A program made the position numbers and the translations under genes. Source: Arenicola marina (lineage: Eukaryota; Annelida; Polychaeta; Arenicolidae). Taken from it: a stretch of DNA of 64,000 bases. The stretch is taken from positions 21,932,352-21,996,351 of the forward strand of contig OZ025257.1 of NCBI GenBank assembly GCA_964019135.1, read 5' to 3'. The notes under the pieces were generated by a model, which saw only the letters and a program-made list of their open reading frames with translations, searched no databases and was not told where the DNA came from. Shown piece after piece: positions 25,901-32,402 of the stretch; position 1 is the stretch's first letter, and every line of letters starts with the position of its first letter.

Positions 25901-28900
25901 ACCCTTGTTCCTGACGTATATATATATATATATATGTACGCAGCTGTTATTGCGGCAGTGTTCAACAGGAGGAGCCTCCCGGGCGGCTCAGTCGTGGTGA
26001 GCAGGCTGAGCTGCAGTTCTCAGGTTCCAAGCCCAGCACCTGCACCTTTTTGAGGCAAATGTCGTCCAACCCCATTACATTGTTCCTGCTTTTTGGGCCT
26101 TTGAATTATCATCCCTCGTGTGCAGACAAGCGGCCAAAAACACCAATCCGGGAGATCTGAGCCCGCTCTTCCCTTCGTTCTTCTGTGTGGAACTTGACGG
26201 TCTTCCCTACTCTGTGCACCTTTCAGACACAAGAAGTTGGAGCTGCTGCGCCAGGTCAAGGTCAAAGAAGATTCCTGTACACTCTGCTGTGATAACCAAG
26301 CAAACGTCACCCTGCAGCCCTGTGAACACAGGTTAGTAGACAGCTCGCGACATTTAAACGTCACTGCAGCCCTGTGAACACAGGTTAGTAGACAGCTCGC
26401 GACATTTAAACGTCACTGCAGCCCTGTGAGCAAAGGTTAGTAGACAGCTCGCGACCTATAAACGTCACGGCAGCCCTGTGAACACAGGTTAGTAGACAGC
26501 TCGCGACATTTAAACGTCACTGCAGCCCTGTGAACACAGGTTAGTAGACAGCTCGCGACATATAAACGTCACTGCAGCCCTGTGAACACAGGTTAGTAGA
26601 CAGCTCGCGACATATAAACGTCACTGCAGCCCTGTGAACACAGGTTAGTAGACAGCTCGCGACATTTAAACGTCACTGCAGCCCTGTGAACACAGGTTAA
26701 TAGACAGCTCGCGACATATAAACGTCACTGCAGCCCTGTGAACACAGGTTAGTAGACAGCTCGCGACATATAAACGTCACTGCAGCCCTGTGAACACAGG
26801 TTAGTAGACAGCTCGCAACATATAAACGTCACTGCAGCCCTGTGAGCAAAGGTTAGTAGACAGCTCGCAACATATAAACGTCACTGCAGCCCTGTGAGCA
26901 AAGGTTAGTAGACAGCTCGCAACATATAAACGTCACTGCAGCCCTGTGAGCACAGGTTAGTAGACAGCTCGCAACATATAAACGTCACTGCAGCCCTGCG
27001 AGCAAAGGTTAGTAGACAGCTCGCGACATATAAACGTCACTGCAGCCCTGTGAGCAAAGGTTAGTAGACAGCTCGCAACATATAAACGTCACTGCAGCCC
27101 TGTGAGCACAGGTTAGTAGACAGCTCGCAACATATACACGTCACTGCATCCCTGTGAACACAGGTTAGTAGGCAGCTCGCCACATATAATCGTCAGTGCA
27201 GCCCTGTAAGCACAGGTTAGTGGACAGCTCGCGACATTTAAACGTCACTGCATCCCTGTGAACACAGGTTAGTAGACAGCTCGCAACATATAAACGTCAC
27301 TGCAGCCCTGCGAGCAAAGGTTAGTAGACAGCTCGCAACATATAAACGTCACTGCAGCCCTGTGAACACAGGTTAGTAGACAGCTCGCAACATATAAACG
27401 TCACTGCAGCCCTGTGAGCACAGGTTAGTAGACAGCTCGCAACATATAAACGTCACTGCAGCCCTGTGAGCAAAGGTTAGTAGACAGCTCGCAACATATA
27501 AACGTCACTGCAGCCCTGTGAGCACAGGTTAGTAGACAGCTCGCAACATATAAACGTCACTGCAGCCCTGTGAGCAAAGGTTAGTAGACAGCTCGCAACA
27601 TATAAACGTCACTGCAGCCATGTGAACACAGGTTAGTAGACAGCTCGCAACATATAAACGTCACTGCATCCCTGTGAGCAAAGGTTAGTAGACAGCTCGC
27701 AACATATAAACGTCACTGCAGCCCTGTGAGCAAAGGTTAGTAGACAGCTCGCAACATATAAACGTCACTGCAGCCCTGTGAGCACAGGTTAGTAGACAGC
27801 TCGCAACATATAAACGTCACTGCAGCCCTGTGAACACAGGTTAGTAGACAGCTCGCAACATATAAACGTCACTGCAGCCCTGTGAGCACAGGTTAGTAGA
27901 CAGCTCGCAACATATAAACGTCACTGCAGCCCTGTGAGCACAGGTTAGTAGACAGCTCGCAACATATAAACGTCACTGCAGCCCTGTGAGCAAAGGTTAG
28001 TAGACAGCTCGCAACATATAAACGTCACTGCAGCCATGTGAGCACAGGTTAGTAGACAGCTCGCAACATATAAACGTCACTGCATCCCTGTGAGCAAAGG
28101 TTAGTAGACAGCTCGCAACATATAAACGTCACTGCAGCCATGTGAACACAGGTTAGTAGACAGCTCGCAACATATAAACGTCACTGCAGCCCTGTGAGCA
28201 AATGTTAGTAGACAGCTCGCAACATATAAACGTCACTGCAGCCCTGTGAGTAAAGGTTAGTAGACAGCTCGCGACATATAAACGTCACTGCAGCCCTGTG
28301 AACACAGGTTAGTAGACAGCTCGCGACATATAAACGTCACTGCAGCCCTGTGAGCAAAGGTTAGTAGACAGCTCGCAACATATAAACGTCACTGCAGCCA
28401 TGTGAACACAGGTTAGTAGACAGCTCGCAACATATAAACGTCACTGCAGCCCTGTGAGCAAAGGTTAGTAGACAGCTCGCAACATATAAACGTCACTGCA
28501 GCCCTGTGAGCACAGGTTAGTAGACAGCTCGCAACATTTAAACGTCACTGCAGCCCTGTGAACACAGGTTAGTAGACAGCTCGCAACATATAAACGTCAC
28601 CCTGCAGCCCTGTGAACACAGGTTAGTAGACAGCTCGCAACATATAAACGTCACTGCATCCCTGTGAACACAGGTTAGTAGACAGCTCGCGACATATAAA
28701 CGTCACTGCAGCCCTGTGAACACAGGTTAGTAGACAGCTCGCGACATATAAACGTCACTGCAGCCCTGTGAGCAAAGGTTAGTAGACAGCTCGCAACATA
28801 TAAACGTCACTGCAGCCATGTGAACACAGGTTAGTAGACAGCTCGCAACATATAAACGTCACTGCAGCCCTGTGAGCAAAGGTTAGTAGACAGCTCGCAA

Positions 28901-32402: not shown

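Follow-up and report, generated by a model that had tools for sequence, protein, structure and literature searches.

The window, the whole 64,000-nt stretch of Arenicola marina DNA that was analysed, carries on its + strand a gene for which a splice model identified 14 coding exons between 10995 and 32402. The joined protein carries the Pfam domains zf-C3HC4_3 (RING) and SPRY, and its named homologues are mostly titled RING finger and SPRY domain-containing protein 1 (RSPRY1). The homologues reach further at the N-terminus, so the model may miss an upstream exon. One exon of the model is an 11-nt microexon (14203..14213, + strand; FVKP) that bridges the gap between the exon ending at 13877 and the exon starting at 14543; it matches an LDNLFxKEGR-type stretch of the homologues, and is preceded by a pyrimidine-rich stretch and followed by a GTAAGT donor. 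Once the microexon is included, the exon of interest here is the 13th of the 14 coding exons found, as the initial annotation had numbered it, and the numbering of the RING ligands given there (C568-C581) follows as well. A 639-aa open frame on the - strand (17784-19703), perhaps part of a mobile element, lies within a long RSPRY1 intron.

The last RSPRY1 intron, 26332-32317, splits the RING. Based on the splice model and homologue alignment, and for the first half also on Pfam, the penultimate coding exon (26227..26331, + strand) encodes the first half of the domain, and the last coding exon (32318..32402, + strand) encodes the second half and ends in a TAG stop. The conserved protein continues only from the 5' splice site CAG|GTTAGT at 26332..26337 (+ strand) to the acceptor ending at 32317, and the spliced model reads on through the conserved RING as ...PCEHR|GFCMLC, which bears out both the host gene and the exon boundary that had been assigned to it. 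The last 30 nt of the penultimate exon are also the exonic portion of the unit of a 52-bp minisatellite that occupies 26302..32159 on the + strand (TRF period 52, 112.5 copies, 94% matches, score 10059).

Unit-by-unit parsing resolved the array into 112 donor-position units, including the authentic donor (26331|26332), followed by a terminal exon-like half unit. The first donor stands at 26332 and the last at 32108, with 109 unit spacings of 52 nt and two of 54 nt. Each unit consists of the exon's last 28-30 nt and the intron's first 24 nt, and the initial description of the array, as a minisatellite copying an exon end and its donor about 112 times inside the RING intron, with this unit composition, therefore stands. 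The accompanying claim that all the donors are identical holds for the 71 downstream sites that have the same 9-mer as the authentic one (72 CAG|GTTAGT in all), but not for the remainder, which comprises 33 AAG|GTTAGT sites and 7 other variants; GT is kept at the donor position in 111 of the 112 units and lost in one. The sequence CACCCTGCAG is present only in the authentic exon and in the two interior units with a spacing of 54 nt, while the other units are without the two C's. One of these interior units has an exon-like half (28592..28621, + strand) that carries the exon's own CCC and equals the exon end at 30/30 nt; the second ends at 29039. Both lie in a duplicated block of approximately 8 units, in which, from unit 38, seven consecutive units are identical at lag 8. 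The internal duplicated blocks are consistent with length instability between individuals or cells. Although assemblies often misstate the number of copies in a tandem array, we consider it exceedingly improbable that the length or existence of this array comes from misassembly, since its 112 units include 44 distinct ones arranged with internal blocks, and since the same architecture, built from different units, was found in several genes on several chromosomes.

The two edges of the array suggest how it arose. At the 3' edge, the exon-like half unit is followed by CACAG|GTGAGC (32160..32170, + strand; placed by the unit parse and by U1 pairing), which is probably the remnant of the ancestral intron start, because GTGAGCAAACAACT resembles GTTAGTAGACAGCT, that is, the bases after GTGAGC resemble the intron part of the unit. 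At the 5' edge, the first ten downstream units differ from the exon by 1.6 mismatches, compared with 2.6-4.0 in the later tens, the pattern predicted for an array seeded by the exon end, although the trend over the whole array did not reach significance (Spearman 0.18, p=0.064). As the exon is the conserved side, the array would have been derived from the exon and not the reverse.

By sequence alone, the authentic donor is not distinguishable from its copies, as the initial annotation had maintained. Its U1 pairing energy (-9.8 kcal/mol) was the same as that of every CAG|GTTAGT copy, compared with -8.3 kcal/mol for the AAG type and -11.1 kcal/mol for the terminal GTGAGC, and its predicted accessibility was no different either (0.37 versus 0.45 +/- 0.25, with 51 of 112 more open). 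The unit can pair CCTGT(GAAC)ACAGG over the donor, with a predicted accessibility of 0.29 for CAG units and 0.78 for AAG units, and array folding compared with shuffles gave z near 0 for three single units and -1.1 and -1.25 for two longer stretches. Control of donor choice by a hairpin was considered and rejected, because the authentic donor does not stand out and the folding energy of single units is no better than that of shuffles.

In translations of the predicted splice forms, only donor 1 yields the RING. Via donor 2 or any later donor, or with the intron kept, the splice model meets an in-frame TGA at 26375..26377 (+ strand), in agreement with the expectation that reading past the true donor would end shortly; use of the second donor leads to this stop after 15 codons, and half of the RING is lost. 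The TGA is 6 nt before donor 2 and 58 nt before donor 3. Under the 50-55 nt rule of nonsense-mediated decay, transcripts spliced at donor 2 should therefore escape decay, and those spliced at donor 3 onward should not. Protein conservation is our ground for taking donor 1 to be the site that is presumably used, and exon definition from the acceptor at 26226, as proposed in the initial annotation, is a plausible basis for correct splicing.

Other boundaries were examined with a donor test in which an 18-mer, made up of 10 nt of exon end and 8 nt of intron start, was sought within ~400 nt downstream, with a threshold of 14/18. Among 35 boundaries in the window, four of them placed one or two bases off, RSPRY1 donor 12952, which lies in AT-rich sequence, only just reached the threshold with 14/18, possibly by chance. 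A weaker donor-associated array with a unit of ~71 bp was located by TRF and site listing in a PPP4R1-like intron (58763..59953, + strand). It begins at the exon donor 58763 and contains 18 sites TCC[AG]G|GTA[AG]G including the authentic one, spaced by 64 nt (65 in the frame count), and both values shift the frame. We do not regard it as the equal of the RSPRY1 array, because only 9 nt of its donor core match, a level that 70 of 5000 shuffles equalled, and it failed the 18-mer test (11/18). The window's other large minisatellites, at 36094-42344 (36 bp x172), 52320-54334 (37 bp x53) and 61940-63690 (38 bp x46), are intergenic or intronic, and for none of the three was a start at an exon end observed.

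Elsewhere in the genome, stretch L015 contains a dynein heavy chain-like gene in which arrays span two donors and one acceptor. Among four of its exons, two pass the Pfam cut-off for Dynein_AAA_lid, one gives a weak AAA_6 match below the cut-off (E 0.0026) and one gives none. The donor arrays (39 bp x28; 43 bp with at least 57 copies) lie behind the two well-supported exons, and the acceptor array (6686-9998, - strand; 53 bp, at least 62 copies) lies before the weak AAA_6 exon. In stretch L019, a Ufd2-like exon is flanked by an array that begins just past the donor and is without exon-end copies.

The frequency of donor-spanning arrays was evaluated in the genome assembly (867 Mb; 762 contigs, first 77 Mb) using a sample chosen blind to arrays, consisting of exon matches to the Pfam myosin head (54 fetched of 77) and kinesin (20 of 133) profiles. 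Only the match list guided the choice of myosin stretches, of which six were taken first because their genes are compact and the others followed by rank, and all 54 fetched exons were counted; the kinesin exons were the first 20 of the 133 that were without stops, lay on contigs C1-C20, and had a match stopping short of profile position 321. Donors and acceptors were called with a simple score built on general splice-site base frequencies, and the 74 exons represent only two gene families. A downstream copy of the donor 18-mer was detected for 12 of the 54 myosin donors, at nine loci, and for 3 of the 20 kinesin donors, although kinesin donor L070 scores below zero and is probably miscalled, and L068 and L069 are weak. 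Every positive case matched at 17-18 of 18, while the next best scores were 13 (myosin) and 12 (kinesin). The search for arrays overlapping exon ends that had been suggested for this genome, carried out on these sampled predicted exons, thus gave 15/74 donors crossed, or 20% (95% interval 12-31%), and donor-spanning arrays occur at about one in five sampled donors in this one annelid genome. Shuffled keys reached 14/18 in 2/2700 (myosin) and 3/1000 (kinesin) cases, and control 18-mers from the interior of the myosin exons recurred at 14/18 or better in 2/54. Upstream copies of the donor 18-mer were absent from the fetched stretch in the 12 myosin cases, whose arrays show 2 to 45 copies, a spacing of 26 to 170 nt and an exon part of ~6 to 57 nt. 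Two side observations come from the same match lists: the myosin region G000:C4:367768-384073 has repeated matches to the same profile stretch (four at ~590-640 and about five within 89-154), as with mutually exclusive exons, and kinesin open frames on G000 contigs C390, C504 and C536 contain in-frame TAG and TAA, as where these read as amino acids, so that contamination or a symbiont is possible.

Repeats are abundant in this genome in general. In 20 stretches of 10 kb, placed by hand at round coordinates spread over C1-C10, tandem repeats detected by TRF made up a mean of 37% of the 200 kb (range 0-100%), and 36% of 3000 random positions recurred within 400 nt at 14/18 or better. Stretches L011, L013, L014, L015, L018 and L026 are each 71-100% tandem repeat. 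One earthworm genome was reported to contain 2.65% minisatellite in the available text of the source, under settings other than those of our TRF run (PMC12130307).

The initial annotation had suggested that the RSPRY1 array acts as a sink for U1 snRNP or protects the intron from premature polyadenylation, and the broader proposal that the array was selected as a U1 platform, blocking premature polyadenylation or raising expression, would fit with retention of GT in nearly every unit and of +3 T and +5 G in 110/111 downstream units. However, other columns (+8, +10 to +12, +14, +15) are equally invariant, and such a spread of invariant columns over the unit is expected from homogenisation alone. 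Conservation of the copied donors was rejected as a sign of function, as the donor columns are not more conserved than the rest of the intron-like half. A donor-like motif, when searched for, was present in just 3/37 arrays of the spread-out sample, and the folding of single units is ordinary. We found no positive evidence for the sink or shield, and consider selection of this kind very unlikely.

The second donor gave no open in-frame product in 16/16 arrays, where it is either out of frame or behind a stop, nor in the 3/3 kinesin arrays, in which it is out of frame. This count of 19 includes the weak PPP4R1-like array, without which the figures are 0/15, and 0/18 with kinesin; for myosin array L053, the first spacing is 170 nt and half of it is 85 nt, and either shifts the frame. 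These results bear on the possibility that downstream donors are used at a real rate, giving truncated RING or decayed transcripts with an effect growing with copy number. A precedent comes from human IFI6 (6-16/G1P3), whose splice-donor minisatellite is reportedly the subject of a 1995 study by Turri et al. The IFI6 unit is 12 bp long and in frame. Two of its downstream units are used as donors, resulting in three mRNA species, according to the available text of one report (PMC4526556), and in RSPRY1 a minisatellite likewise supplies many donors starting at the exon end, among them dozens of exact 9-mer copies, a terminal donor that pairs better with U1, and a second donor whose transcript is predicted to escape the decay expected for donor 3 onward. 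Unlike the frame-preserving IFI6 unit, the RSPRY1 unit is 52 bp, and a stop comes before donor 2, which leaves no in-frame product; moreover, the lack of an open second product extends to myosin and dynein-like genes, in which routine error should be costly. We therefore think it unlikely that downstream donors are used at a real rate.

We also examined acceptors, as the donor/acceptor difference bears on how the arrays arise. Among the 48 myosin exons with 250 nt upstream, arrays crossed 2 acceptors; a further acceptor with a short flank (L032) scored 17/18 and falls outside the 2/48 but inside an alternative count of 3/54. The array upstream of exon rc194, in L034, was rejected as an acceptor array, having scored 11/18 in the acceptor test. 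Arrays were rarer at acceptors than at donors, both for 2/48 (Fisher p=0.009 versus 12/54 donors, 0.015 versus pooled 15/74) and for 3/54 (p=0.023 and p=0.021, respectively), although these tests presume more independence than is present, because the two kinds of site were taken from the same exons, and the genes are related. Arrays thin toward the acceptor, from 9/48 at -60 to 7/48 at -40, 4/48 at -20 and 2/48 at -10, and since their density is lower near acceptors generally, part of the asymmetry may be mutational.

Around donors, a position profile was obtained for 48 of the 54 myosin exons, six having too little downstream sequence. The repeat state extended into the exon in 12/48 at -10, 5 at -40, 1 at -80 and 0 at -100, and was present in 11-16/48 over intron positions 0 to +140 (13-16/48 at +20 to +100, 12-14/48 at the donor). 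Donors are therefore not special targets but merely not avoided, since array density at the donor does not exceed that in the intron that follows. This argues against an origin directed by donors, in which active 5' splice sites, through R-loops, U1-bound nascent RNA or transcription-replication conflict, would seed duplications, and the arrays would be material for intron gain or for stepwise AG|GT splicing. An intron-gain model from boundary-spanning repeats has been proposed, as the available text of the source describes it (PMC3087553), and arrays over the first 20 intron nt do mostly reach back across the donor (15 at +20, 14 at 0 and 12 at -10, of 48). However, the array by the Ufd2-like exon begins after its donor, and the RSPRY1 copies are without an obvious polypyrimidine tract and so would make poor acceptors. 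Overall, we regard an origin directed by donors as doubtful.

The architecture itself is already known. In amphioxus, minisatellite-like repeats called mirages span an exon-intron boundary and copy its splice signals, while normal splicing is reportedly undisturbed, according to the available text of two reports (PMC3087553, PMC3902484), which agrees with the amphioxus minisatellites mentioned in the initial annotation. As in the mirages of Adh3, globin BflGb6/BflGb9 and troponin C, and in the PGBD5 repeats, the RSPRY1 repeats span the boundary and their copies carry AG/GT, but the host is an annelid and not a cephalochordate. In addition, there are 112 units, compared with 6 and 3 in two amphioxus BflGb6 haplotypes, and in the portions of these sources available, mirages are reported in single genes, whereas the worm arrays cross a substantial share of sampled donors with a bias over acceptors. 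An amphioxus context for the RSPRY1 array does not hold, because the gene groups with spiralians. In a tree of 40 proteins, 14 of them unnamed and with no named annelid among its rows, the window gene sits in a set of 19 rows (98/98), of which the named ones are from molluscs, nemerteans and a brachiopod, and joining it with Branchiostoma is rejected (AU p=2.5e-7). The phylum was assigned from COX1 on the mitochondrial contig (invertebrate code), which is 91% identical to that of the annelid Pilargis wolfi, its nearest match among the 7999 candidates with the most shared words; all named rows in the best 49 are annelids, with gastropods coming next.

Introner elements are dispersed new introns in which one element family is found in many genes. 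The worm arrays are of another kind, as in those examined each unit stems from its own exon end and differs by gene. In human segmental-duplication genes, according to the text available, recent paralogues have gained new introns and alternative products from internal tandem repeats located at exon-intron boundaries (PMC2812944); such repeats also affect gene structure, but the RSPRY1 exon itself is unchanged. A potato RdRp gene is described, again in the text available, as having gained an intron by tandem genomic duplication (PMC4974935), which is likewise tied to splice sites, whereas in RSPRY1 an existing intron was enlarged at its start. The available portions of other reports describe intronic minisatellites in earthworm metallothionein, not at donors (PMC12783039), and a 27-bp minisatellite in an intron of an abalone gene (PMC6905558), and no comparable case appears in those of PMC6823432, PMC4732748, PMC2572611, PMC7960049, PMC12130307 or PMC3862624. 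Our literature search found no report of such donor arrays in annelids and no genome with approximately a fifth of sampled donors duplicated, the single cases being from amphioxus and human. As far as searched, then, the annelid occurrence, the 112 units, the rate among sampled donors and the donor bias are new.

Taken together, the RSPRY1 array is probably a donor-spanning minisatellite of the mirage type that is mostly neutral, with the 5'-most donor used. In a genome with rampant local tandem duplication, which reaches across roughly a fifth of the 5' splice sites sampled, a tandem duplication would have placed a copy of the exon end and intron start downstream, and the array would then have expanded through replication slippage or unequal exchange. 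Splicing would take the 5'-most donor, which is the first transcribed and the nearest to the exon's own acceptor, through co-transcriptional commitment or exon definition, and later copies would remain silent and be removed with the intron. Such a rule would also account for arrays being commoner at donors than at acceptors, because the 5'-most copy is right at a donor and wrong at an acceptor. We infer both the rule and the neutrality of the array from the sequence comparisons described above. The L015 acceptor array breaks the simple rule, since the correct acceptor there is the last copy. Classical in vitro work can favour the intron-proximal of duplicated donors, which counts against the rule, as does the stronger U1 pairing of the RSPRY1 terminal donor. 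A more sweeping version, to which we attach only a modest chance, is that 5' splice sites throughout the genome of this lineage act as a cradle of minisatellites. If the sampled rate is extrapolated, the introns that begin with 2 to more than 100 near-identical donors may number in the tens of thousands. Only a near-absolute 5'-most-donor rule of splicing would make this possible, the donor excess would come partly from donor-linked duplication, and the arrays would be stepping stones to new introns.

The choice between identical donors seems to have been studied mostly with hand-made duplications. The worm provides a natural series of such donors, ranging from 2 to 112 copies, and the genes concerned are conserved ones whose protein can come from the first copy only. 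RNA from the worm could be used to measure 5' splice-site choice against copy number, spacing and exon length. The arrays also bear on intron lengthening and intron origin, and suggest that many exon ends in genomes of this kind are likely to be difficult for automatic annotation and short-read assembly. The splicing machinery of the worm would routinely have to choose the first among many near-identical sites.
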